Source of the DNA: Periplaneta americana
Lineage: Eukaryota; Arthropoda; Insecta; Blattodea; Blattidae
DNA length: 64,000 nucleotides
Direction of reading: 5' to 3'
NCBI RefSeq assembly: GCF_040183065.1
Contig: NC_091117.1
Location: 121,664,226 to 121,728,225, forward strand
Shown one piece after another: positions 4,734-46,300 of the stretch. Under the pieces are notes generated by a model. The model worked only from the letters and a program-made list of their open reading frames with translations, searched no databases and was not told the origin of the DNA. How positions within the stretch are numbered: the stretch's first letter is position 1; each line of letters starts with the position of its first letter. A program made the translations under genes and the position numbers.

Positions 4734-6579
4734 ATGGGGAAGTATGAGAGGAAAACTGAAAAAACATGTCTCACACAAAGACAGTTTGATGAAGCAAAAC
4801 GACTGATTAATGAGAGAGCTAGCCAGAGGGCTGCTGCCAAGAAGGTCGGGTGCAGTGAAGCGACACTTCGAAAGAGGCTTAAGTTGGTGAGAATTATTCC
4901 AATAGGAACAATTATAAATTATTTAGGAGATAGAAAGTTAGAAAGTTAATAACATTTTTTTTTTTTTGTTTTCTTTCATTTAGGGTATCGTAGCTAGTTC
5001 AATGGGAAGGCACAGAAAGGTGTTTAATGAAGAGATGGAGGAACAACTGGTGAAACATGTTAAAGATCTGGAAGCTAGGTTTTATGGCATGACTAGGAAG
5101 ACGTTAATGAAAGTAGCTTATGAATCTGCAGTCCAGAACGGACTAGAGCACCGATTTAACACTGAATTGAAATTAGCGGGCAAAGATTGGGTGTACCGAT
5201 TTCTTGCAGACTGGGGTCTTTCTTTACGTACACCCGAGCAGTGCAGTTTAGGAAGGGCAATGGGATTTAACAAGGTGCAGGTTGACCGGTATTTTGAGAA
5301 CCTCAAGGAATGTTTGGGAAAGTACAAATTTCCTCCCCACAGATTGTTCAACATGGACGAGACCGGAGTGTCGGCTGTTCCTGATAAGACGGCTAAAGTC
5401 GTTGCTACAAAGGGAAAGAAGTCCATCAAGAAAGTAAAATCGGCTGAAAGAGGTCAAATAGTCACTGCTGTTTTTTGTGTAAACCCAACAGGGAACTTTA
5501 TACCACCTGCTTTGATTTTTCCTCGTAAGAGGAACAAACCGGAGCTCTATAACAACTCCCCTACAGGTTCTCTTGGACTTGTTAGCGAATCTGGATACAT
5601 GAATTCCGAACTGTTCCTTGTTTGGTTGGAACATTTTTCCAAGCATGTTAAATCTTCAGTGGATGATCCAGTCCTCTTGGTTCTTGATAACCATGTCTCA
5701 CATTGCTCGCTTTCAGCTGTGGAATTCTGCAGACAGCACAACATTGTCCTATTGACGTTGCCACCCCATGCTAGTCATATGCTTCAGCCATTAGATAAAG
5801 TAATATTTGCCCCATTCAAGAAATTCTATGCCCAAGAAGTAGAAAAATGGCTTTGTAGTAATCCTGGCAGAGCTATAACCCAGATGGAAGTGTCTGGTCT
5901 ATTTCGCGTAGCATTCCAGAGGGTGGCAACTGCTGGAAATGCTGTAGCGGCTTTTCGTGACACAGGCATTTATCCCTACAATCCACACGTGTTCAATGAT
6001 GATGATTTCTTACCATATGAGGTAACCAAAATCGACTTGCCAATTCCTGAATATCTCGATCAGTCAGCAACTAGTAACAGAGATGAAGATGTAGATAAAG
6101 AACAGGAAGAAAGAAAACAATTGAATATGAATAACCAAGAAACAAATGAGGGGTCAACTAATCAAACAGTTCAACCAACCAGTTCCATTAGTTTACCTCA
6201 AGTACCAATCACCAACATTCATCCCTTACCTAAATATGAGAATCTGAACAAAAGGAAAAGAACCAGTCAGCAATCAGAGATTTTAACATCGTGTCCGTAT
6301 AAAAACAATCTTGTGAAGAAGGAAAACTTGAAACAGGAGAAAGAAAAGAAGAAACAAGAAAGGCTGAAAGAAAGAACTCAAAAGCAGCTTTCAAAATCGA
6401 ATCCTCAAGTGTCCAAAATTACAAAAAGATGTAAAAAATATAAAGGAACCAAATCGAAAACTTTCACTGGACAACAGCTGACATTAGGGCCTAGCACATC
6501 TAGTGATAAACAAACTCCATCAGAGAAGACATACATCTGCCCTGGCTGTGGCGAATCCATTGAAGAAGACTGGGTATAG
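4734..6579 (+). CDS. Pogo/Tigger-like transposase, two exons, C-terminal PHD finger truncated by a stop codon
   Basis: Cut-and-paste transposase that would bind the element ends and act in the nucleus. Exon 1 is 4734-4886 (51 codons) and carries a psq/CENP-B-type helix-turn-helix (QRAAAKKVGCSEATLRKRLK). The intron is 4887-4983 (97 bp, GTGAGA donor, TTTCATTTAG acceptor, phase 0). Exon 2 is 4984-6579. The predicted product is 582 residues. The DDE_1 catalytic core is visible: MDETG (Asp about 176), LLVLDNHVSH (Asp about 286) and QPLD (Asp about 322), i.e. a DDD triad. The tail is Lys/Gln-rich and ends in the first half of a PHD finger (CPGCGES). An in-frame TAG at 6577-6579 interrupts it; the same frame stays open to a TAA at 6658-6660 and supplies the remaining zinc ligands (CNGCGEWWHELC, then CDVC). 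The core looks intact, so the stop is probably a recent single-base change. Readthrough is the alternative. Confidence 0.85.
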
Positions 6580-6959: not shown

Positions 6960-7709
6960 TCCATTACCTTATAGGTTTTTAGAACTCCCTTTCCGAATTT
7001 CGGAGAAGATAAATAAGTAGGAGTTCTAGGCTTTTCACTTGTAATTTGCGCCCATAGTGGTTTAATAAAGGCTTCATACTTTTTACCTGTGCTTGATTTT
7101 GGCTTTTTTGTTGATGGATCATTATTTTGATAAATGGCATTGGACTCTATTAGTATTTCATGATATTTTAATATATCTTCTGATTTAGCCACGTTATCAG
7201 GGATATCTTTCTTAGTTAACAAAGTCAGTAGGCCATCTGTTGCCTCGTACGTTTTTCCGTTAATAATGAGATTATTATTATGTACCGAAATTTCAGATTG
7301 CCCTATATATATATAGTTTATTACCAACTGGTCTTATCTCAAACACAGGTTTATCTGTTTTATAATTTAAAAACTTTGTTATATTAGGATTTATATATGT
7401 AGTGGCATAATCCGTAATGGGGGGTGTCTGTGGTAACTCAAATAACCCCCCTTTCAAATGACGTTTCAATTGGTGTTGGTGGAATTTCAAGGTTATGATG
7501 AGCTACTGGAATTAACTCTGTGATAAGATTTTTATTTTGGTCAGTAACTTTTCCTACTTCTGTAGCTAGACGCCCAATAGCATCACTAATTGGCTGCTCT
7601 TTCTTCTTATTCAATTCATATTGTAATTGTGGTTGTTTCTTCCATTCCTTAAATCTATCTTTCAGCTCTTGTTTAAGCTTAAGTCGCTCTGTCGGAGACT
7701 TTGTTGCAT
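6960..7709 (-). pseudogene. Polinton DUF8207-like protein, multiply frameshifted
   Basis: Minus-strand gene starting near 7709 at a CATATAAATG motif like the other genes of the element. A charged region (about 7700-7480) is followed by LLTLLTKKDI and SSTGKKYEAFIKPLW, the signature of a structural or accessory protein common in insect and cnidarian Polintons (called DUF8207 in Pfam, from memory). Breaks: the ATG is out of frame with the conserved segment, the frame shifts at the C6 run at about 7445-7450, it shifts again in the TATATATATA run at about 7302-7313, and the 3' end is replaced at about 6960 by the pogo terminus. Two of the breaks lie in homopolymer or dinucleotide runs, so sequencing error should be excluded. 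The function is unknown. Confidence 0.7.
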
Positions 7710-7798
7710 TTATATGAATTATTTTTTAACATATCGTAGACCTAGACATATTCATGTTGACGTAACGTAAACCTAGACATATTCATGTTGACGTAACG

Positions 7799-8599
7799 TT
7801 ATTCTGGAATTATAAAGGATTTTATTTGGTTCCTATATTTTCCATTGTTGGGCAATCTAGATTTGTCAATAGTTATAAAGCCATGAGGTACGCTCCAACA
7901 TATATTACATAGCTCTTGAAATTTATCAAACGACATATCAGGACCAACAAACTCATCATATGCATGTTTAAGATTAATATTATCTGTTTTGAATAAACAC
8001 AAAAAGTTCATGTTATCCCTAATGAGCTGTTTTGGAATTTTAGAATACGTCTGACCTAGATAAAGCAAACAGATCCCCTTATGTCTACCTCTCAAACATA
8101 TCTCTCGTACGATATCTTGATTCTCTAATATCCAATCGTCTATAACAATTAAAGAGTACGGTTCGCAGTTATCTAACGATATCACATCGTCATCTTTTTC
8201 TATAAATGTTGCCATAGATTCACCCGCTTGTGCTTCAAAATCATAAAAAAATTGTCTTAATGTAATATATTTTTGTTGATCCAGACTTTTTGAGTAAATA
8301 TAATAATGATCAGGATCAATCCATCCATCTTTGAGAATAAAGTTGTCTACCGCTAACACGGTCTTCCCACAGCCTGATGCACCTACAAATAAAGCTCTCA
8401 TACATTTAGGACGTAGTTCTCCAGTTATTCTATAATCGCTATCTTTGTCTTCTGGAAGGTGCGTAACATCCCAACACACTGTGCGCAGCGCGAGGGCCGA
8501 AGGCAAGCATAGCTGATTGGTTGATGGCACGAAGCTTGAGCTGCTGTGCCCCGGTTCTTCGCTAACTTTTTTAGTTTTCTTATTGTTGGTTTTGATCAT
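7799..8599 (-). CDS. Polinton genome-packaging ATPase (FtsK/HerA family, A32-like)
   Basis: 266 residues, intact. It would drive ATP-dependent packaging of element DNA into capsids. The Walker A motif GASGCGKT is at residues 73-80, followed by a strand and helix. Walker B is LIVIDDW (about 150-156), and a sensor-like YLGQTYSKIPKQLIRDN segment follows. The length matches Polinton ATPases. The start at 8599 is chosen because it sits at the end of a palindrome shared with the divergent gene at 8616. The first 35 residues are Lys/Ser-rich and probably disordered. The reading frame is free of stops, in contrast to its neighbour at 6960-7709. Confidence 0.9.
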   Translation of the reverse strand: MIKTNNKKTKKVSEEPGHSSSSFVPSTNQLCLPSALALRTVCWDVTHLPEDKDSDYRITGELRPKCMRALFVGASGCGKTVLAVDNFILKDGWIDPDHYYIYSKSLDQQKYITLRQFFYDFEAQAGESMATFIEKDDDVISLDNCEPYSLIVIDDWILENQDIVREICLRGRHKGICLLYLGQTYSKIPKQLIRDNMNFLCLFKTDNINLKHAYDEFVGPDMSFDKFQELCNICWSVPHGFITIDKSRLPNNGKYRNQIKSFIIPE

Positions 8600-8618
8600 T
8601 TATTTACGTAAATAAATG
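8597..8618. promoter_or_regulatory. Perfect 22-bp palindrome carrying both divergent start codons
   Basis: The half-site is CATTTATTTAC, followed by its exact reverse complement. The outermost three bases on each side are the two start codons: the ATPase on minus begins at 8599 and the minor-capsid-like gene on plus at 8616. Each arm therefore reads AAATAAATG into its gene. Only 16 bp separate the two ATGs, so any promoter and 5' leader must be extremely short and shared. The wording resembles the TAAATG late promoters of poxviruses; function is inferred. Confidence 0.7.
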
Positions 8619-9278
8619 TATATTAAACTTGAAGGCACAACCTCTGAATTGAGTTTACGGCTATCTCACAATCACAATATAACCGCAGACGCAATATCCG
8701 TTATTGGATTCTACTCCACATTTCTAACACCTAATGTTAAAGAGGATACTATTTTAAAATACGGTACTCAGGACATTATTATTGATAAAGGACAGTATTC
8801 ATTCGATTCCCTTGTACAAACACTCTCTCACATTAAAGATCTAGAGATTAAAAAAGATGATATTTGTAATAAAGTTAGCATCTCCAACAAAGGAAAACAA
8901 GATTTTGATTTCACAAGCCTAGGTAAATTATTAGGGTTAACAAACAATGCAATCGTAAAACCAGGAGAAAAAATTATAGCTGATGGACCCCCAAACTTTA
9001 TTCCTTTTAATACCATTAATATAGAATACAACTTAGCTGCAAACACCGGTATCATCACAAAACATAGCGAGCATGAGCATAAAAGTAGTGGAATAATTGC
9101 AACGTTTAAACCAAATGTCTATTTTAAACAGTCCATCATTTACGAACCAGTTAATCCACTCATATTTCCAATTCATCATTTGACATTTAGAGATATTAGT
9201 GTTAAGATCATTGACGAAAATAATAAGTTGATTGATTTCGACAGTGCTAAAATTGAAGTTATATTATCAATAATATAA
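8616..9278 (+). CDS. Polinton minor capsid (penton-like, jelly-roll) protein
   Basis: 220 residues, intact. In Polintons the gene between the packaging ATPase and the major capsid gene encodes a short beta-rich minor capsid protein modelled as a single jelly roll. Here the product is rich in predicted strands (for example AISVIGFYSTF, NTINIEYNL, HHLTFRDISVKIID) with no membrane segment. The motif NGLTN-like LGKLLGL near residue 105 and the terminal VKIIDENNKLIDF strand are typical of the family as I remember it. The order ATPase / minor capsid / major capsid supports the call more than any catalytic motif. Confidence 0.75.
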   Translation: MYIKLEGTTSELSLRLSHNHNITADAISVIGFYSTFLTPNVKEDTILKYGTQDIIIDKGQYSFDSLVQTLSHIKDLEIKKDDICNKVSISNKGKQDFDFTSLGKLLGLTNNAIVKPGEKIIADGPPNFIPFNTINIEYNLAANTGIITKHSEHEHKSSGIIATFKPNVYFKQSIIYEPVNPLIFPIHHLTFRDISVKIIDENNKLIDFDSAKIEVILSII

Positions 9279-9298
9279 TCACACTTTTTTTTAATTCA

Positions 9299-9306
9299 TA
9301 TAAATG
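9299..9306 (+). promoter_or_regulatory. TATAAATG start motif of capsid gene
   Basis: TATAAATG, in which the last three bases are the start codon of the capsid gene. The same octamer occurs at the metalloproteinase start (10748-10755), and close variants occur at 8597-8618 and, on minus, at about 7709. It is probably a common promoter of the element. Confidence 0.5.
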
Positions 9307-10532
9307 AGTATCACAGCAATAGAAAAATATCAAACACAATTGTTTGGTGCAAACAAAAGAACCAAAGATAATATAAATAAACCATTAACTGTTACCGAAT
9401 TTGATTTGGATATTGGAGATGGTTTTTATCATCCAAGTAAGATGAGGGCTTATATGCAATTTGAACCTCATGGAAAGGCATCAAATGGCAACTTTGCTAA
9501 GGATGCACTTATAAAACTCGTAAACAACTTTTTCCCATGAATAGAGCACACCTTAGATCGTTTGGACAGCTTGTAGAAACTGTAGAAAGCCCAGCCCTTG
9601 TTTCTGATGTCCTTATTGATTTGAATATTCCGAAATCGGAAATTGAATTTTACAAAGGAGCCGGGTTTATCACAGACGATCGACTTAACTATGAAACTGG
9701 TAGAATTTACGAAGTTAGTTTCCCACTCGAGTACATATTTGGCTTTCTAAGATATAATAGAGACATCATGTTTAATCTTGGCTTAACAATCTCTTTCGAA
9801 CGGGCTTCTTCTGATGAAGCTTGCTTTTACAGATGGGATAAAAAGAAAGCAGACGGCACTGTTGTCGTGATGCCTCACGAGGGAAAAATTGTCATTAACG
9901 ATTTTAAAATAATAGTACCCATTGTTGAATATGAATCTAATTATACTGACGAAATGAAAGCAAAGCTGTATAAGAATCCTGTATTAAAATTGAACTATTT
10001 TGTTTTGAGTGTTCACGAGGAACATGGATTTAAGGCTAAGAATTTAAGAATTGACTTGACTACATCATTTAACAGTTTACAGTTCGATATGCCTGACGTA
10101 TGTATTATCCGTTTTCAAACTAACAGACCCAATGATCAACAAAGGGATTCGAGTGTATACAATCACTGTCAGTTAGCTAACTGGACGTTCAAAAATAGCA
10201 GAAATGAAGAGTTCCCATTTGAAAAACAACAGATGGATATTATGAAACACTGTTATCAAAATGCTTACGATACATATGTAGCTTTCAAACAAACGTGGGT
10301 GGGTAACTCCAATTTACGATGGGATATTGACAAGTTCATTACCGAACATTTCATGGGTATTATCAATATGACTAAACACAAAAATATTACTTTTACAGAC
10401 AGGACACAATTAGTTACTACTATGGACTTTGAGGCTAATGTACCAGACAATACAATTATCTATGCTCTCATGGGTGGTGAGAAAAATATTAAAATTGATA
10501 TGAAGAATAAAAAAGTTAGCGAAGATTTTTAA
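9304..10532 (+). pseudogene. Polinton major capsid protein (double jelly-roll), frameshifted
   Basis: Two open frames form one gene. The N-terminal part is 9304-9540 (78 residues, ends VNNFFP at a TGA); the remaining 331 residues are read in another frame from 9537 to 10532. The second part shows SFPLEYIFGFLRYN, ANWTFKNSRNEEFP and a C-terminal NTIIYALMGGEKN segment, which I recognise from major capsid proteins of arthropod Polintons. The shift sits at TTTTTCCCATGA (about 9529-9540), a homopolymer context. The total length (about 410 codons) is on the short side, so a small internal loss near the shift is possible. No capsid could form from this copy without translational recoding. Confidence 0.75.
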
Positions 10533-10547
10533 TATATAATAAATAGA

Positions 10548-10688
10548 ATGCATCAGAGTGAGAGCAAATTTATATATGATCGGTTATCCAAGCTGCTCAG
10601 ATATAATATCCCAAACACCAATTTGTATTTACCACTATCATATACAGTTGTTTTTAACAAGCAGTTAGCAAAACATAAAGCGTTTTGA
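10548..10688 (+). CDS. Small open frame (46 residues) between capsid and metalloproteinase genes
   Basis: An ATG preceded by AATAAATAGA opens a 46-codon frame (starts MHQSESKFIYDRLSKLL, ends AKHKAF). It has the same AT-rich leader as other Polinton genes, but no recognised domain, membrane segment or signal peptide. It may be the 5' end of a lost Polinton gene cut off by the rearrangement that created the capsid-tail duplication at 10694-10740. It may also be chance. Confidence 0.3.
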   Translation: MHQSESKFIYDRLSKLLRYNIPNTNLYLPLSYTVVFNKQLAKHKAF

Positions 10689-10693
10689 CCGGT

Positions 10694-10740
10694 GCTGTCA
10701 TGGTTGGTGAGAAAAAATATTACAATTGACATGAAGAATT
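10694..10740 (+). repeat. Duplicated 3' tail of the capsid gene, just upstream of the metalloproteinase
   Basis: This segment (GTCATGGTTGGTGAGAAA..., ending ATGAAGAA) repeats the 3' end of the capsid gene at about 10467-10513 (CTCATGGGTGGTGAGAAA..., ending ATGAAGAA) with a few substitutions and one extra A. In both places an AT-rich run with TAATA follows and then a new start codon. It marks a junction created by duplication or recombination directly before the metalloproteinase gene. Confidence 0.7.
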
Positions 10741-10747
10741 TTAATAA

Positions 10748-10755
10748 TATAAATG
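10748..10755 (+). promoter_or_regulatory. TATAAATG start motif of metalloproteinase gene
   Basis: TATAAATG, identical to the octamer at the capsid start (9299-9306); the start codon is 10753-10755. A shared start motif argues that the metalloproteinase is expressed as a gene of the Polinton and not as a host gene that happens to lie next to it. Confidence 0.5.
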
Positions 10756-12258
10756 AGAGCGACAATTATTATTATTACTATATCATGTTTATTATCAGGA
10801 TTACAATCCAAGCCAGTTACTAATCAAACATTAGACGTTATTAATCGCTTGCATCAATATGGTTACCTATCATTATCAGAAAATCAACAGGTCAAATACG
10901 TGGATCAAACAACACTCACTACAGCCATATTTTTATTCCAAGAATATTATGGTTTAGACACAATGGGTGAAATAGACGATATTATAGAATTATTATACAC
11001 TCCAAGATGCGGAGTTAAAGATGATCCTACTGGTTTTTCCACAGCTACTTATAAATGGAATAGCAAAACTATTAAATGGCACTATTCTCTTGCTAACAGC
11101 GATGTCTTACATATCACAGAACAGGCTTTCAATACGTGGCAAAAACACACAGATTTAAAATTTGAACGTGATATGGTGCATCCCAACATAGTTTTAAGTA
11201 ACAAAAGAGGAGGACACAAATGCCAGAAATCTAGCGCAGTTTGTGCTTCTAAATTTGATGGTATAGGAGGAATTCTTGGTCATTCGGACTTCCCTCATAG
11301 CGATAATTCTTTAATCGAAATTCATATTGATAGCGATGAAAATTGGTATATAGGTACAGACGATAACACACCAGAAAATCAAACCAACTTATATGCCGTG
11401 TTAATACATGAAATCGGTCACGCTTTGGGTATAGCTCATTCCAATGATAGAAACTCGATTATGTTTGCATTTTACAGTGGAGATAAACTTGAACTAGGTA
11501 ATGATGATATAAATGCTATTCAGAGTTTATATGGTTCTCCAACTGTAAACAATCAACCAACAACATCACCTATAAAACCCAATCCTTTAGAACCGGAACT
11601 GTGTGAGTTAAATAATGTTGAGACATTTCTGATCGTAAATCAAATCATGTACATTTTTTACGAAAAGTGGGTATGGATGATTAGTCTATCAGACATGAAT
11701 ATTCCTAAACTACAACTTATAACTGACTGGCTATTATTTTTACCGCCAGACTTTAAAAATATATCTACACTATACCAAAGACCATCTGGGGAAATAGTAT
11801 TCTTTATAAACAATCTAATATACATGATAAAGTTTCCTAGTCTAATGTTAGTTAGCGGATACCCCAAGCAAATATCTACCTTAGGAATAACTTCAAACGC
11901 GAGAATACATACAACTGTAAATACATTTACGGGTCAAACGTTCATATTCTATAATGATATTTACTATATGGAGTTGGATGAATGTCAGTTTGTAGCTAAG
12001 AGTTACGGAATATCTAGAAAATTTCCAGGTGTCCCTCCGAACATGAAATCTGCTTTTAGATACACGAACGGTATGCTATATTTCTTTAAGGACAACACTG
12101 TCTTTGAATTTAACGAATTTACAAATACATTACTTAGAGCGGGTAAGAATAACCTATCTACATTCGGTATACAATGTAAAAAGATTCCATCTTCATACGG
12201 AGAAATCATCGTTAACTTAAAGAAGCTTGTATTGAAATTAGATGCTCTTAATGCATGA
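10753..12258 (+). CDS. Secreted matrix metalloproteinase (M10A) carried by the Polinton
   Basis: 501 residues, intact and intronless. Secreted zinc endopeptidase that in animals cleaves extracellular matrix. Layout: hydrophobic signal peptide (about 1-19), a propeptide resembling a peptidoglycan-binding fold (about 22-82), cysteine switch PRCGVKD (84-90, Cys86), catalytic domain about 95-263 with HEIGHALGIAH (zinc His219, His223, His229; catalytic Glu220), Met-turn SIMF (Met237), a Pro/Thr hinge (about 264-282), and a hemopexin-like domain bounded by Cys284 and Cys475, the usual disulfide spacing. No furin site or membrane anchor is evident. All key residues are present, so the enzyme should be active. 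Host MMP genes normally have introns; this one has none, shares the TATAAATG start motif and AT-rich codon use of the adjacent capsid genes, and follows a duplicated capsid tail. Some insect DNA viruses carry MMP genes, so virus-like acquisition is plausible. Confidence 0.9.
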   Translation: MRATIIIITISCLLSGLQSKPVTNQTLDVINRLHQYGYLSLSENQQVKYVDQTTLTTAIFLFQEYYGLDTMGEIDDIIELLYTPRCGVKDDPTGFSTATYKWNSKTIKWHYSLANSDVLHITEQAFNTWQKHTDLKFERDMVHPNIVLSNKRGGHKCQKSSAVCASKFDGIGGILGHSDFPHSDNSLIEIHIDSDENWYIGTDDNTPENQTNLYAVLIHEIGHALGIAHSNDRNSIMFAFYSGDKLELGNDDINAIQSLYGSPTVNNQPTTSPIKPNPLEPELCELNNVETFLIVNQIMYIFYEKWVWMISLSDMNIPKLQLITDWLLFLPPDFKNISTLYQRPSGEIVFFINNLIYMIKFPSLMLVSGYPKQISTLGITSNARIHTTVNTFTGQTFIFYNDIYYMELDECQFVAKSYGISRKFPGVPPNMKSAFRYTNGMLYFFKDNTVFEFNEFTNTLLRAGKNNLSTFGIQCKKIPSSYGEIIVNLKKLVLKLDALNA

Positions 12259-13224: not shown

Positions 13225-13640
13225 AATAAAAATAAAAATAAACGTTTTTCCTAAGTAGGGTTCCTAAAGTAGTGGAATGTTTTAGCTTATAAATACTGTC
13301 ATATATTTGCTTGTTTTGGCTTGTTTTTCTTAGGTATTTTATAAGAATATTGGGGTATAATTTTTTCCAAAGTAAGGGGTGTTTTGAGGACAGCTAAAAT
13401 AAAAAATACATGTTTTTCCAAAGTAGGGGTTCTAAAGTATTGGGGGTTTTCTAGCTTAAAATATTGTTATATATTTGCTTGTTTTTTATTTGTTTTCTTA
13501 GGTATTTTATAATAATATTGGGGGTAAATAGGGTTCCATAGTATGGGGTATAAAGTAGGGTTTTTAAAGTATAGGAAAGTTTTTAGCTTAAAATATTGTT
13601 ATATATTAGAGGGTTTTTGGTTGGTTTTAGTATGTTTTTT
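13225..13640. repeat. Diverged AT-rich tandem repeat, about three units
   Basis: Three related blocks share the order 'ttttcc(a/t)aagtagggttctaaagta', 'tttTAGCTTA' and 'tatatatttgcttgtttt'. The AGCTTA landmark is at 13284, 13453 and 13585, giving offsets of 169 and 132 bp. The blocks are decayed and end where a LINE fragment begins at 13650. Confidence 0.6.
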
Positions 13641-13649
13641 TAACCCAAA

Positions 13650-14097
13650 GTGGAACGTTTTGGGTCTGTCCTCAAGGGCCCCTCTAGTAGTGCTCCCATG
13701 CAAGCAAAGTTAAGTCATATTAAAGCCCAGATACGAACAATATACAGAAGAAGGATGGAGAGAACAACAGTGACTAGTAAAATTATTTCAGCAGAAGAAG
13801 AAGATAAAATGAACATTTTCCATTTGGTAAAGGAAAGAAAACGCTGCAATTCCCACTTCGTTACTAAAATCGAAGATGAAAAAACGGAATATAGTAAACA
13901 AAAGGATATAATTACTATCTTTCATCGGTACTTTACCGATATGTTTGATGATAAATCTGCACATGTTTCTCAAACTTTTAATCCAAATCCAATAAGGTAT
14001 GTCACACCTGAACAAAATAAACAGCTTAATGCATCTATCACAAAAGAGCAAGTTCAAATAGCAGTCTTTCAAAGGAAAGCAAACAAGTCACCCGGAA
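13650..14097 (+). pseudogene. Non-LTR retrotransposon fragment (linker and start of reverse transcriptase)
   Basis: An open stretch encodes a region like the one between endonuclease and reverse transcriptase in LINE ORF2: IFHLVKERKRCNSHF, then IFHRYFTDMFDD, then ITKEQVQIAVFQRKANKSPG, where KSPG is the usual start of the RT domain (KSPGPDG). The coding sequence stops abruptly at 14095, where the purine-rich array of the segmental duplication begins. Only about 150 codons remain. Clade not determined. Confidence 0.7.
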
Positions 14098-26468: not shown

Positions 26469-29400
26469 GACCACCACCACTACTACTAATTAAATTTGTT
26501 CCGGTTAAGGAGGTTTCGTCAAGATCCTCAGGTCCACCGTTGTGAAGTAACAGTATGTCTGACCGCGAAACGAGCGAGCCGGAGTTTAAATCCTGGTTGG
26601 GAAAGTTGCCTGGATAAGAATTTTTCCGGGGTTTTCCCTCAACCCATTAAGAACATATGTTAGATAACTTTCGGCGCTGGACCTGGACTCACTTCGCTGT
26701 CGTTATCATCTCACTCAAACGCTAGACAATTTTAGCAGTCGATAAAGCGTCGTAAAATAAACCAATTAAAAGGAAAAGATCCTGAGTCATTTTTGTACGA
26801 CCCTCTTCTACGACCAAATCATAGGTATTAGCATGTTTTTTTATAGTGGCGCTCCACATTATATTGGCCACGAAAGTACCACATATCAGGCATCTCGATC
26901 GTTCATCTACTTGAAGAAAGAAATATTTTTCATCTTTAATCTTGCGTACACTACTTTTAACACTTAAATATAACTGACTGGTTGATTGGCAAACTTACTC
27001 GTGTTAAATTGTATAAGCTCTGAGGATGGCGTGAAGCACCGAAACAGCTGTAAGCCACACGAGCTTATACAATTCAACACGAGTAAGTTTGCCAATCAAG
27101 CAATCAGAAATATTTTTCTTTCCAATCTATATCCTGGGTAAAGGAATCTGCGCGTCTCCTCTCCAATCTGCATTGTTCGAATCCATATTATTAGAGCGAT
27201 CAGAGTTTTGAAAATGCCATCTAAAATTACTGGAACTCACAAATTTCCAAAGCATTACAATGCTCATATCCTAAGTGCTTTTGATATACTAACTATTGCT
27301 AATTATGTTGTTTCTTTGATGCAGTGACTCTGCGTTTCCAATTATCTGTACTGCTCAGTGTAAAAGAAAGCATTTGTGCGAGTAGTGTCAATAGCTTCAG
27401 TGAGTTGTTGAAATGTATTAAGGAATATAAACTAGAGGCGGCCTACTCTGTAGTTGTCAAATTTTGTGAACTTACACTAACAATTCCTACCACTACTTCC
27501 TCTCTATTCTCAAGAGAGTAAAGGCATTTGTGAGAAATTCTATAGGCCAAAAGCGAATCTCACAGTTGGCAGTTTTGAAATTGAAAAATCATTTATTAAG
27601 AAACTGCCACAACAATCTCGGTTTTACGGTGACGTCATAGACGAGTTAGACAAACAAAATGGGAGAATCGTTCTGCAGCTTAAATGACAGGTGAGTAGGT
27701 AATTTTTTTTCTAAATATTAATTGTATTTAGTTACTGCTTCCCTCCTTTGAAATATTAATACTCTCCACTAATATAAACAATTTACTGTACCTTCAACAA
27801 GGCTGGATACGCTCGTCTGTGCGGATGTTGCGTCCTCCTGGATGACTTCAGTCTGTAAGTAGTAGTCGCTCGTCTTTGTTCCTTCGTCCATCTGTATCAC
27901 TTCAGTCTGTAAGTAGTGGTCGCTCGTCTGTGCGGATGTTGCGTCCGTCTGGATGATTTCAGTCTGTAAGTAATGGTCGCTCGTCTTTGTTCCTTCGTCC
28001 GTCTGTATCACTTCAGTCTCTAAGTAGTGGTCGCTCGTCTTTGTTCCTTCGTCCGTCTGTATCAATTCAGTCTGTAAGTAGTGGTCGCTCGTCTTTGTTC
28101 CTTCGTCCGTCTGTATCACTTCAGTCTGTAAGAAGTGGTCGCTCGTCTGTGCGGATGTTGCGTCCATCTGGATGACTTCAGTCTGTAAGTAGTGGTCGCT
28201 CGTCTTTGTTTCTTCGTCCATCTGTATCACTTCAGTCTCTAAGTAGTGGTCGCTCGTCTGTGCGGATGTTGCGTCCATCTGGATGACTTCAGTCTGTAAG
28301 TAGTGGTCGCTCGTCTCTGTTTCTTCGTCCATCTGTGTCACTTCAGTCTGTAAGTAGTGGTCGCTCGTCTGTGCGGATGTTGCGTCCGTCTGGATGATTT
28401 CAGTCTGTAAGTAATGGTCGCTCGTCTTTGTTCCTTCGTCCGTCTGTATCACTTCAGTCTGTAAGTAGTGGTCGCTTGTCTTTGTTCCTTCGTCCGTCTG
28501 TATCACTTCAGTCTGTAAGTAGTGGTCGCTCGTCTTTGTTCCTTTGTCCGTCTGTATCACTTCAGTCTGTAAGTAGTGGTCGCTCGTCTGTGCGGATGTT
28601 GCGTCCATCTGGATGACTTCAGTCTGTAAGTAGTGGTCGCTCGTCTTTGTTTCTTCGTCCGTCTGGATGACTTCAGTCTGTAAGTAGTGATCGCTCGTCT
28701 GTGTGACTACGTCCGTCTGAATGACTTTGGTCTGCAAGTAATGGTCGCTCGTCTGTGTGCCTGCGTCCGTCTGTATCACTTCGGTCTGTAAGTAGTGGTC
28801 GCTCGTCTGTGTGCCTGCGTCCGTCTGTATCACTTCGGTCCGTAAGTAGTGGTCGCTCGTCTGTGTGCCTGCGTCCGTCTGTATCACTTCGGTCTGTAAG
28901 TAATGGTCGCTCGTCTGTGTGTCTGCGTCCGTCTGTATCACTTCGGTCTGTAAGTAGTGGTCGCTCGTCTGAGTGGCTGCGTCCGTCTGTATCAGTTCGG
29001 TCTGTAAGTAGTGGTCACTCGTCTGTGTGCCTGCGTCTGTCTGTATCACTTCGGTCTGTAAGTAGTGGTCGCTCGTCTGTGTGCCTGCGTCTGTCTGTAT
29101 CACTTCGGTCTGTAAGTAATGGTCGCTCGTCTGTGTGTCTGCGTCCGTCTGTATCACTTCGGTCTGTAAGTAGCGGTCGCTCGTCTGTGTGTCTGCGTCC
29201 GTCTGTATCACTTCGGTCTGTAAGTAGCGATCACTCGTCTGTGTGTCTGCGTCCGTCTGTATCACTTCGGTCTGTAAGTAGTGGTCGCTCGTCTGTGTGC
29301 CTGCGTCCATCTGTATCACTTCGGTCTGTAAGTAGTGGTCGCTCGTCTGTGTGTCTGCGTCCGTCTGTATCACTTCGGTCTGTAAGTAGCGATCACTCGT

Positions 29401-29711
29401 CTGTGTGTCTGCGTCCGTCTGTATCACTTCGGTCTGTAAGTAGTGGTCGCTCGTCTGTGTGCCTGCGTCCGTCTGTATCACTTCGGTCTGTAAGTAGTGG
29501 TCGCTCGTCTGTGTGCCTGCGTCCGTCTGTATCACTTCGGTCTGTAAGTAATGGTCGCTCGTCTGTGTGTCTGCGTCCGCCTGTATCACTTCGGTCTGTA
29601 AGTAGTGGTCGCTCGTTTGAGTGGTTGCGTCTATCTGGATCACTTCGGACTGCAAGCAGTGATCGCTCGTCTGCGTCGCTGCGGTCGTCTTCATCTTCTC
29701 TGCTGGTCCAG
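17617..29711 (-). CDS. Minus-strand gene with phase 1-1 cassette exons and TQT-repeat exon (copy A)
   Basis: I do not recognise the family. Four exons can be joined with consistent phase 1 at every boundary, in 5' to 3' order. X1 is 29711-27792 (1920 bp; TTGCTTTCAG acceptor, G|GTACAG donor). X2 is 23777-23694 (84 bp; TGCATTTTAG, G|GTACAG). X3 is 22993-22877 (117 bp; TGCATTTTAG, G|GTAAAG). X4 is 17756-17617 (CTCTTTGCAG, ends TAA). X1, X2 and X3 are all multiples of three, so each can be skipped. X2 encodes VPKATEKVMTSRERFLERIR, X3 a Tyr/Pro/His-rich segment (GHYPYYPHQKRM), X4 a Glu run then NFFIRLFFRICSCCCPCLCK and a basic end. Introns beside X1, X2 and X3 are homologous, so the cassettes arose by duplication. 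The 5' exon(s) with the start codon were not found; they would lie beyond 29711. Confidence 0.6.
18059..18100. repeat. (AT)n microsatellite
   Basis: About 21 AT units in copy A. The same locus in copy B (about 54108-54118) has only five or so, so the tract changed length after the duplication. Confidence 0.95.
18581..18831. mobile_element. Fold-back/MITE-like element (copy A)
   Basis: TGAAGGGTCCAGGGAA at 18581 continues into CCAGGTAAGTCACTTTTT. The reverse complement of that run ends at 18831, giving inverted arms of about 38 bp around an internal spacer of about 175 bp. No coding capacity. Present at the same site in copy B (54601-54848). Confidence 0.7.
18840..20256. other. Unique intron/intergenic sequence (copy A), no gene recognised
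   Basis: Between X4 and the 20261 insertion there are only short open frames without recognisable domains, the longest at 19863-20294. The counterpart in B is equally conserved along coding and non-coding stretches, so this conservation reflects recent duplication and not selection. Confidence 0.5.
20619..20806. repeat. Subterminal 16-bp motif cluster, left side of the insertion
   Basis: TGTAGCATCCGTTACA at 20619-20634, then two reverse-oriented copies TGTAACGGATTCTACA at 20774-20789 and 20791-20806. Right-side counterparts are at 22079-22094, 22100-22115, 22288-22303 and 22457-22472. Such arrays are typical transposase-binding regions; that role is inferred. Confidence 0.75.
20863..21614 (+). 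pseudogene. Transposon-encoded Lys/Arg-rich protein, frameshifted and split by a NUMT
   Basis: Starts MADHSKYNIRMAKLKFRAKK; the frame shifts in the A8 run at about 20932-20939, after which WTEYLKKDRDRN is read. Mitochondrial DNA then interrupts (20975-21238). The frame resumes with KRDQLKVRRQSDRILDDMLN and, from 21285, runs open to TAA at 21612-21614, including the conserved-looking SYQCTSTLRKAVKK and LPLSPSKKRA segments. I recognise this as the basic N-terminal half of a repeat-associated insect protein family; a related second half may be the sequence at 37887-39256. No function can be given. Confidence 0.6.
20975..21238 (+). other. nad2: NUMT: nuclear copy of mitochondrial nad2 fragment
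   Basis: 88 codons read without break only with the invertebrate mitochondrial code (TGA as Trp, ATA as Met, AGA as Ser). The product contains GGLNQISIRKILTYSSINHM and ends LLSLGG, the core of NADH dehydrogenase subunit 2. The absence of indels and the intact mitochondrial frame mean the transfer is recent. It interrupts the transposon gene between DRDRN and KRDQ. It cannot make ND2 in the nucleus. Confidence 0.9.
23190..23536. mobile_element. MITE with TAA target duplication (copy A)
   Basis: 347 bp, starts GGGGACACTCGG and ends GAGTGTTCCCA, flanked by TAA (23187-23189 and 23537-23539). The homologous cassette at about 23970 has the empty site (GTATAGCCCTAAAGAAAAAT), which confirms insertion. 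A 3-bp TAA duplication suggests a PIF/Harbinger-type element. The same insertion is in copy B (56978-57325). Confidence 0.75.
24075..24760 (+). pseudogene. THAP-like zinc-finger pseudogene fragments (copy A)
   Basis: After a TTTTTTTACAG acceptor-like tract the plus strand reads MASKCRVPVCLRVYWR, resembling the start of a THAP domain (C-x-V-P-x-C). A piece further on (about 24570) reads VFKFPSEKEKL, like the THAP FKFP block. Several stops and shifts separate them. The short paralogous stretch at about 33713-33830 reads CLDVPAITK then, in another frame, YVPVLKFPK. The call rests on these short patterns only. Confidence 0.35.
25512..25527. other. Deletion junction in copy A with 16-bp filler
   Basis: Up to 25511 copy A matches copy B to 59361; from 25528 it matches B from 63265. 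Between them A has 16 unrelated bases. Since A keeps only the left end of a MITE that is whole in B (59334-59715), A has lost about 3.9 kb here by a deletion with filler, as in end-joining. Confidence 0.75.
25636..26050 (-). pseudogene. MULE-type (Mutator-like) transposase C-terminal remnant (copy A)
   Basis: Minus strand, two frames. The upstream part (26050-25835) has LAFVPPDHVKQLFEELRED, and the downstream part (25845-25636) has HRTNNVSEARHNRFQ followed by SLYTALAEIKKEQADTE. These are the C-terminal region of MULE transposases (RTNN...E.WH...F.. and an EIKKEQ helix). A frameshift separates the parts at about 25840. Upstream coding sequence is cut off at 26050. Copy B retains slightly more (63388-63856). 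Confidence 0.7.
26225..26345. repeat. Probable right terminal repeat of the MULE (copy A)
   Basis: On minus: ...CGCAGACACACC...CTAAAATCAACTTTACGAC...CTTTTCCGAATGAGCATTT. A similar sequence at 63035-63152 in copy B reads plus-wise (GTGTCTGGG, AAAACCAACTTTCCGAATG, TTTCCGAATGAACATTT). The two lie on opposite sides of the transposase remnant in inverted orientation, as MULE terminal repeats would. Confidence 0.5.
26395..26488. repeat. (CTA)n/(CCA)n microsatellite
   Basis: A run of about 20 CTA units passes into CCACCACGACCACC and back to CTACTA. Confidence 0.95.
26532..26775 (+). mobile_element. tRNA-derived SINE, degraded head
   Basis: Ends in the family body ccggggttttccctcaaccca ... TAACTTTCGGCGCTGGA ... 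AGCGTCGTAAAATAA shared with 60801-61070. Flanked by imperfect 11-bp direct repeats AAGATCCTCAG (26521-26531) and AAGATCCTGAG (26776-26786). The B-box is mutated (AGTTTAAATCCTGG), so it is probably inactive. Confidence 0.75.
26984..27097. ncRNA. Long fold-back with hammerhead-ribozyme-like core
   Basis: 36-bp arms 26984-27019 and 27062-27097 are complementary with one mismatch. Between them lie CTGAGGA (27020-27026), a short GGCG..GCACC hairpin, GAAAC (27041-27045), then AGCTGTA. That order (stem I, CUGANGA, stem II, GAAA, short stem III ending GUA, stem I) is the layout of a type I hammerhead, as known from Penelope-like elements and retrozymes. Stem II has a C-A mismatch and the expected G10.1-C11.1 pair is not obvious, so the copy may be inactive, or the match fortuitous. 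Confidence 0.4.
27324..27625 (+). pseudogene. hAT transposase C-terminal remnant (ZMYM1-like)
   Basis: Reads ELLKCIKEYKLEAAYSV then LTLTIPTTTSSLFSRE, the hAT dimerisation region (LTIPVT.. SAERSFS). After a shift at about 27515 it reads RVKAFVRNSIGQKRISQLAV, matching the RIK..LRS.MGQ.RL..LA block. Only the C-terminal hundred or so codons remain. Confidence 0.7.
27792..29711 (-). repeat. 54/57-bp coding tandem repeat: 34 units with 19 TQT motifs
   Basis: Exon X1 of the cassette gene. On minus the unit is TSDHYLQTEVIQTDAGTQ (18 residues). There are 34 units: 28 of 18 residues and 6 of 19 (ending ATSAQ). The frame is open throughout although two unit lengths mix, since both are multiples of three. 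The N-terminal half has unbroken TQT at each junction (19 times); the C-terminal half has TKT (9), AQT (6) or TET (1). The opposite strand is also partly open as a by-product. Unit homogeneity indicates recent expansion. Confidence 0.85.
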
Positions 29712-44910: not shown

Positions 44911-44935
44911 ACTTGGCGGGAGTTCGATTCCTGCC

Positions 44936-46300
44936 AAGCCAAGCCAAGCCAAGCCAAGCCAAGCCAAGCCAAGCCAAGCCAAGCCAAGCCAAGCCAAGCC
45001 AAGCCAAGCCAAGCCAAGCCAAGCCAAGCCAAGCCAAGCCAAGCCAAGCCAAGCCAAGCCAAGCCAAGCCAAGCCAAGCCAAGCCAAGCCAAGCCAAGCC
45101 AAGCCAAGCCAAGCCAAGCCAAGCCAAGCCAAGCCAAGCCAAGCCAAGCCAAGCCAAGCCAAGCCAAGCCAAGCCAAGCCAAGCCAAGCCAAGCCAAGCC
45201 AAGCCAAGCCAAGCCAAGCCAAGCCAAGCCAAGCCAAGCCAAGCCAAGCCAAGCCAAGCCAAGCCAAGCCAAGCCAAGCCAAGCCAAGCCAAGCCAAGCC
45301 AAGCCAAGCCAAGCCAAGCCAAGCCAAGCCAAGCCAAGCCAAGCCAAGCCAAGCCAAGCCAAGCCAAGCCAAGCCAAGCCAAGCCAAGCCAAGCCAAGCC
45401 AAGCCAAGCCAAGCCAAGCCAAGCCAAGCCAAGCCAAGCCAAGCCAAGCCAAGCCAAGCCAAGCCAAGCCAAGCCAAGCCAAGCCAAGCCAAGCCAAGCC
45501 AAGCCAAGCCAAGCCAAGCCAAGCCAAGCCAAGCCAAGCCAAGCCAAGCCAAGCCAAGCCAAGCCAAGCCAAGCCAAGCCAAGCCAAGCCAAGCCAAGCC
45601 AAGCCAAGCCAAGCCAAGCCAAGCCAAGCCAAGCCAAGCCAAGCCAAGCCAAGCCAAGCCAAGCCAAGCCAAGCCAAGCCAAGCCAAGCCAAGCCAAGCC
45701 AAGCCAAGCCAAGCCAAGCCAAGCCAAGCCAAGCCAAGCCAAGCCAAGCCAAGCCAAGCCAAGCCAAGCCAAGCCAAGCCAAGCCAAGCCAAGCCAAGCC
45801 AAGCCAAGCCAAGCCAAGCCAAGCCAAGCCAAGCCAAGCCAAGCCAAGCCAAGCCAAGCCAAGCCAAGCCAAGCCAAGCCAAGCCAAGCCAAGCCAAGCC
45901 AAGCCAAGCCAAGCCAAGCCAAGCCAAGCCAAGCCAAGCCAAGCCAAGCCAAGCCAAGCCAAGCCAAGCCAAGCCAAGCCAAGCCAAGCCAAGCCAAGCC
46001 AAGCCAAGCCAAGCCAAGCCAAGCCAAGCCAAGCCAAGCCAAGCCAAGCCAAGCCAAGCCAAGCCAAGCCAAGCCAAGCCAAGCCAAGCCAAGCCAAGCC
46101 AAGCCAAGCCAAGCCAAGCCAAGCCAAGCCAAGCCAAGCCAAGCCAAGCCAAGCCAAGCCAAGCCAAGCCAAGCCAAGCCAAGCCAAGCCAAGCCAAGCC
46201 AAGCCAAGCCAAGCCAAGCCAAGCCAAGCCAAGCCAAGCCAAGCCAAGCCAAGCCAAGCCAAGCCAAGCCAAGCCAAGCCAAGCCAAGCCAAGCCAAGCC
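44936..46300. repeat. (AAGCC)273 perfect pentanucleotide array
   Basis: 1365 bp of AAGCC without one interruption: 273 units. It begins directly after the SINE B-box segment ...CTGCC and ends at the right palindrome arm. Both strands are open in every frame (QAKPS / WLGLA periods), which is only a consequence of the sequence. Confidence 0.98.

Follow-up and report, generated by a model that had tools for sequence, protein, structure and literature searches.

The stretch of DNA analysed here (the window; 64,000 nucleotides, C1:121664226-121728225 of a 3.23-Gb genome) contains an intact matrix metalloproteinase (MMP) frame beside genes of a Polinton/Maverick. The question that this locus raises is whether the MMP is a gene of the element or a host sequence that came to lie there, and what its product would do. 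As set out below, the frame is very probably a virus-type gene, long kept, of a Polinton/Maverick (adintovirus-like) lineage, whose product would be secreted late and would cut matrix for particle spread.

The frame comprises 501 codons and runs from ATG to stop without a break or an intron. Analysis with Pfam returned Peptidase_M10 (5e-33, residues 102-261) and Hemopexin (2e-08, residues 434-475), the latter as one repeat, the last of the domain. The best solved relative by sequence was proMMP-1 (1.5e-32, residues 24-467). The frame, the PRCGVKD and HEIGHALGIAH motifs, the Met-turn, Cys284, Cys475 and the hydrophobic N-terminus were all located where the initial annotation had placed them (Table 1). 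The usual cysteine-switch motif is PRCGxPD; the window MMP has Lys in place of the Pro. The Met-turn is Met237, and the HExxHxxGxxH signature is present as well. No furin-type R-x-K/R-R site was found in the 501-aa protein. A structure model based on 25 sequences had a mean pLDDT of 84.9 and a pTM of 0.57. Over the full length, 457 columns of the model aligned with proMMP-1 at a TM of 0.37-0.45, with a different predicted arrangement of the domains. Foldseek fits of single modelled domains were good: TMt was 0.83 for the pro-plus-catalytic part and 0.78-0.84 for hemopexin propellers. Thus, the features of M10A peptidases can be recognized in the sequence, namely the zinc site and Met-turn, the cysteine-switch pro-domain and the hemopexin domain, and the product is predicted to be a whole secreted proMMP, held latent by its cysteine switch. 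Its putative activity would be zinc-dependent proteolysis.

Table 1. Features of the window copy of the element (window coordinates).
Feature	Position	Strand	Basis
DDE_1 transposase of a transposon inserted into the Polinton; common to the C9 and C51 copies	5002..6579	+	Pfam
Broken remnant of a Polinton gene (DUF8207-like in the initial annotation)	6970..7725	-	Frames of sister copies
Packaging ATPase, 266 aa, intact	7799..8599	-	Sub-threshold Pox_A32 match (0.0011) and conserved place
220-aa open frame in the position of a putative minor capsid (penton) gene	8616..9278	+	Place
Major capsid gene, double jelly roll, split into two frames (9304-9540, 9501-10532)	9304..10532	+	PF21738, 4e-10
TAAATG start context within TATAAATG (10748-10755)	10750..10755	+	As at other element starts inspected
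Intact Polinton MMP gene, 501 aa	10753..12258	+	ORF, Pfam, model, Foldseek
Probable signal peptide, residues 1-19	10753..10809	+	Hydropathy; cleavage site inferred
Cysteine switch PRCGVKD, residues 84-90	11002..11022	+	Motif; no variation at Arg85 and Cys86 among 25 sequences
Zinc site HEIGHALGIAH, residues 219-229	11407..11439	+	Motif; no variation at His219, Glu220, His223, Gly226 and His229 among 25 sequences
Hemopexin domain Cys284-Cys475, predicted four-bladed propeller	11602..12177	+	Pfam (last repeat), model, Foldseek
Predicted amphipathic C-terminal helix, residues 481-500	12193..12252	+	Model, moment test
Right terminal inverted repeat, ~457 bp	13235..13691	+	95.9% to left repeat of sister copy C9
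Target-site duplication GCTCCC	13692..13697	.	Partner read at left end of sister copy C9

The MMP adjoins Polinton capsid and ATPase genes, as first proposed; the capsid gene is identified by its PF21738 match, and the ATPase match to Pox_A32 is below threshold. The 220-aa frame between them matched no family above the cut-off in Pfam and PHROGs searches. The decay ascribed to the neighbouring genes was found both in the capsid gene, now in two frames, and in the broken gene beyond the ATPase, but the DUF8207 label of the latter could not be confirmed: its counterpart in a sister copy, a 235-aa frame, had no match in Pfam. The transposase in the inserted transposon is of the DDE_1 family, which we take to be of Tigger/pogo type. 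The right end of the element, which had not been located previously, is at 13691, with the repeat boundary for the GCTCCC duplication of the C9 and window copies placed one base inside the end of the alignment. The left half of this copy lies outside the window; a PolB match is located approximately 50 kb upstream of the MMP, on the far side of an array of 20-bp tandem repeats. Between the MMP and the right repeat, neither the window copy nor the C17 copy contains a frame of at least 100 aa.

In three insertions, the MMP follows the capsid gene and precedes the right terminal repeat. Their 6-bp target duplications are exact and differ from one another: CTATCC on C17, TTTTTC on C13 (56.26 Mb) and GCTCCC on C9, the window's sister. 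With the search for other Polintons of this arrangement, suggested in the initial annotation, the number of independent insertions came to three, that of the window and C9 included. A further copy, on C12 at 38.95 Mb, has the same flanks and CTATCC site as that on C17 and was not counted as a separate insertion. The terminal inverted repeats are 355-457 bp long and 95.6-98.0% identical. Two elements measure 18,709 and 18,327 bp; the C9 copy, with at least one inserted transposon, measures 30,418 bp. Polintons/Mavericks are about 15-20 kb long. The layout was read from copies elsewhere in the genome. In the orientation of the MMP, the left part of the element consists of the left repeat, PolB (leftward) and two small unassigned genes (rightward). 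The middle, read leftward, begins with another frame and the integrase; then come a gene matching trimeric coiled stalks (YadA-type), unassigned frames and the ATPase. The right part, read rightward, contains the 220-aa frame, the capsid gene and the MMP, followed by 0.5-1 kb and the right repeat.

Matches to DNA polymerase B (PF03175) occur near MMP-lineage loci, for example on C17, C9, C51, C1, C11, C12 (38.97 Mb) and C13 (76.86 Mb). A 1351-aa frame in L030 is without a PF03175 match, yet is 45% identical to the PolB of Ladona adintovirus. By family homology, the polymerase is putatively of the protein-primed type. The integrase core was recognized as rve above the cut-off (6e-13, and again 2e-12), and a Chromo match (3e-5) was just under it. 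No adenovirus-type cysteine protease was found among the open frames scanned with Pfam. Based on PolB, integrase, ATPase, double-jelly-roll capsid, terminal repeats, 6-bp duplications and length, the element is a Polinton/Maverick, and it is adintovirus-like.

The linkage extends across the genome. A search with the MMP gave 54 matches, grouped into 26 loci, 12 with a best identity of at least 87% and 14 weaker; these counts are lower bounds, with only the best candidates scored. An ATPase of the same lineage lies within 5 kb of the MMP in 11 of the 12 stronger loci (2.0-2.3 kb away in ten, 4.8 kb in one); the locus at C10:18.38 Mb has none within 20 kb. None of the 14 weaker loci has a same-lineage ATPase within 20 kb. 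Conversely, an MMP is close to 15 of 18 ATPase loci at 60% identity or more, of which five belong to a single C11 tandem array, and not to the remaining three. Among 45 ATPase matches below 60% (31-55%), there is no case of an MMP within 20 kb; most of these matches, at 35-41%, probably belong to other Polinton lineages. They include at least one other, more numerous Polinton group, whose ATPase and PolB frames are open and which lacks an MMP in the vicinity. The C11 array (C11:120009147-120031549) consists of five tandem units of ~4.5 kb, each with an ATPase and the first 40 MMP codons; the last unit alone continues into the rest of the MMP.

A protein search with the window MMP gave 78 matches. 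Close named sources were locust, lanternfly, ladybirds, fireflies, leaf and seed beetles, ants, one fungal assembly and Ladona dragonfly adintovirus, whose record is entitled 'TPA_asm: collagenase [Ladona dragonfly adintovirus]'. Judging from these relatives, the host is probably an insect. The tree contained 42 chosen rows: the window MMP, 29 of P0002-P0034, 11 cellular MMPs and one granulovirus MMP. P0018, P0029, P0031 and P0032 were left out, as were P0001 (98% identical, 362 aa) and the remaining matches. The 30 element-type rows, insect where named, form one side of a branch supported at 98/98. The window MMP, P0002, Schistocerca, P0006 and the Ladona adintovirus collagenase form a starred set of five; P0002, at 55%, is the nearest relative outside this genome's own lineage. 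Only the Ladona record links another family member to a named virus, and the other 28 relatives in the tree were compared as protein sequences. Approximately unbiased (AU) tests rejected two placements of the window MMP among cellular sequences, one beside Cimex MMP2 (p 9.7e-6) and one in a group made up of the Laodelphax MMP and three from Lepidoptera (p 1.2e-49); the cellular sample is small and does not extend to full-length MMPs of the host. The search and tree proposed in the initial annotation thus place the gene in a clade with an adintovirus gene and apart from the cellular insect MMPs tested.

Of the 14 weaker genomic loci, the analysis covered twelve, all but C3:106.2 Mb and C16:98.2 Mb. 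All five probable host catalytic exons fit cellular MMPs better than the element family, one being 74% identical to Cimex MMP2 and one, L045, only narrowly so (61.6 vs 57.0 bits); these five places probably represent host MMP genes. All seven loci classed as old relics fit the element family better than cellular MMPs. In a viral-contig collection, the single MMP protein as query found no relative; a search with alignment A1 returned 17 loci whose best stretches all fell within query residues 80-269, none reaching the hemopexin part. A phage collection contained no match to P0008. The gene family is older than the window lineage and has named members from several insect orders. The earlier view that this Polinton lineage acquired an MMP is therefore right in that a Polinton carries the MMP as its own gene, but too narrow as to when and where. 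One family member, P0042, is from Erysiphe pulchra, a powdery mildew; by eye it resembles P0025, which in the tree is sister to a ladybird sequence. P0042 is probably insect DNA in a fungal sample.

The window, C9 and C51 copies have the inserted transposon and the flanks in common at ~98-99% identity, up to ~23 kb in window coordinates, the fetched limit. They are thus segmental duplicates of one insertion, and the C9 and C51 MMPs differ from that of the window by four substitutions each. Among the 12 loci at 87% or more, the only other whole open MMP frame is that of the C12 copy at 1.94 Mb (508 aa), and in eight the MMP is split or contains stops. The left and right repeats differ at 6 of ~447 positions on C13, 10 of 355 on C17, 9 of 355 on C12 (38.95 Mb) and 18 of 457 on C9, so that the window's insertion, through its C9 sister, shows the largest repeat divergence measured. 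The MMP, situated inside the terminal repeats, has the same age as its copy. The intact frame had been taken as a hint of younger age or retained use; with near-identical copies that are segmental duplicates and eight of 12 loci broken, it does not bear this reading.

Synonymous and nonsynonymous changes in the MMP, a comparison also proposed at the outset, indicated constraint between the window and C13 copies (30 synonymous, 20 nonsynonymous, P 1.4e-7) and between the window and C12 (1.94 Mb) copies (17 and 25, P 0.019), but not significantly between the window and C17 copies (10 and 20, P 0.19); the window copy enters every constraint comparison, and changes that arose by decay after insertion are counted in each. 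Synonymous changes were likewise in excess in three of three comparisons of the capsid gene, one of two of the ATPase and one of two of the 220-aa frame. These patterns suggest selection on the MMP while the elements were active, after which the copies would decay in the host genome like the rest of the element.

These data bear on two host-centred explanations. According to the first, the host's own MMP was recently retrocopied, and the copy landed in a dead Polinton or next to one; this would account for the lack of introns, the genome probably containing host MMP genes. This explanation, which the initial annotation had named, together with an absence of other Polinton copies, as the outcome that would contradict its own proposal, is rejected by the tree, the AU tests against both cellular groupings and the fit of all five probable host exons to cellular MMPs (L045 narrowly). 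Moreover, three independent insertions carry the gene inside their repeats. We give a recent host retrocopy next to no credence. Domestication by the host would explain why the window MMP is intact when its capsid gene is broken; it is rejected as the cause of the intact frame, since the three near-identical copies are segmental duplicates and the gene is broken in eight of the 12 loci, and we regard it as highly improbable.

Assignment of the gene to the Polinton leaves two readings of what the protease acts on. The preferred one, a matrix-cutting enzyme, entails the following sequence. In cells infected by an active element, the latent enzyme would be made and secreted late, along with the capsid proteins. 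Outside the cell, it would be activated through the cysteine switch, and the active MMP would cut matrix or basal-lamina proteins, allowing particles to leave or to reach tissues. The C-terminal helix may hold the enzyme on the membrane or particle. Alternatively, the protease could act on viral or immune proteins, in entry, maturation or the control of haemocytes or melanisation. The MMP sequence does not fix the substrate, and the tail is unlike those of the cellular MMPs compared; against this, the secreted architecture has been kept in full, and its hemopexin domain contributes to matrix binding in cellular MMPs. A viral or immune substrate is possible but on balance unlikely; the crossing of basal lamina, as put forward in the initial annotation, is a putative role.

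An MMP gene is of use chiefly to an agent that encounters extracellular matrix. A stable Polinton MMP, constrained in two of three comparisons between elements, argues that the elements behave, or behaved, as infectious viruses. This suggests that MMP-bearing Polintons travel through tissues in the form of virus particles, or did so in the past.

The sequence TAAATG is a poxvirus late start motif. It was found at 13 of 13 element gene starts inspected, covering approximately 10 different genes in several copies (window 7799-12258; L027, L029 and L030) and including the MMP, in a sample biased toward frames whose initial Met directly follows a stop codon. The P value of a comparison of nine of nine starts with the 6.2% of ATGs in this context is inflated by the same start-reading bias and is disregarded here. 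The terms 'TAAATG' and 'polinton' co-occur in published papers. The octamer TATAAATG, reported in the initial annotation at both the MMP and capsid starts, is indeed present at 10748 and 9299, but it occurs nine times in the window against 4.8 expected, and five of 100 shuffles reach nine; it is weak evidence by itself and was rejected as such. Three starts (L029 7900, L030 193 and L030 2167), a PolB start among them, have the same 20 bases around the ATG, suggesting duplicated gene fronts in two copies.

In the family sequences, 16-34 residues follow the last cysteine, spaced as in an amphipathic helix. Their mean moment was 0.50, compared with 0.29 for shuffled tails, and 30 of 30 exceeded the pooled shuffled median. 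Tested against its own shuffles, each tail but one (P0024) was in the upper half (29/30), and 18 of 30 were in the top 5%. Six of the 12 control tails (11 cellular, one granulovirus) were too short; of the six testable, one (P0083, 15 residues) was in the top 5%. Four of the 12 look like hydrophobic anchors. By eye, five of the 11 cellular MMPs stop no more than 11 residues past the last cysteine, four have a terminal hydrophobic stretch and two, both lepidopteran, have a polar tail of 15 residues. The tail thus appears common to family members and often amphipathic, on a mixed test, and we found no description of such a tail as a putative feature of an element MMP family in the literature examined. 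A bolder reading, that an old, insect-wide clade of MMP Polintons uses the helix to anchor the protease on the particle or on membranes of infected cells as a virion-linked matrix cutter, is doubtful; if true, these 'transposons' would be selected for moving through tissues between hosts.

The closest known system is the Ladona dragonfly adintovirus (Eupolintoviridae). Adintoviruses are reportedly the subject of a paper by Starrett et al. The 'collagenase' of the Ladona virus, a GenBank third-party annotation, falls in the same MMP clade and in the starred set and is 42% identical over 93% of the window query. It shares the Pfam domains of the window MMP and ends in a tail resembling that of the window MMP; PolB likewise relates the virus to a sister element of the window copy (45% identity, above). 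The virus differs in host and in sequence, and was compared by its proteins only. The mp-nase of betabaculoviruses (granuloviruses) is likewise an MMP in an insect DNA virus. It belongs to a baculovirus genome. The one granulovirus MMP in the tree (CrleGV) has a long branch, does not group within the 30-row clade and has no residues past its last cysteine; AU tests neither showed nor rejected a common origin with the element clade. An excerpt of PMC4500397 reports the proposal that granulovirus MMP degrades basement membrane. MMPs of nudiviruses, ascoviruses, entomopoxviruses and iridoviruses matched the predicted fold in a viral library, at 17-29% identity in the rows so named; they were compared by fold, outside the tree sample. 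An excerpt of PMC4981718 concerns a poxvirus metalloproteinase. Cellular secreted or membrane-anchored MMPs have the same pro-, catalytic and hemopexin domains, but fall outside the element clade and differ in their tails.

In the main text of two adintovirus papers (PMC11071308 and PMC8363768), a term search found no metalloprotease or collagenase, and the literature found on Polintons or adintoviruses and proteases named no MMP in a Polinton, although adintovirus MMPs may have been described in print. An MMP of this kind is already on record as a GenBank annotation; what is added here is the wider insect family, the demonstrated insertion structure and the characteristic tail. Polintons thereby join granuloviruses, nudiviruses, ascoviruses, entomopoxviruses and iridoviruses as carriers of MMPs.

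Two other repeats were observed in the window. A perfect 5-bp tandem array of GCCAA (44933-46300, ~274 copies) lies between 140-bp inverted arms, and a 54-bp tandem array (27829-29673) keeps a frame of 650 codons open on the minus strand.
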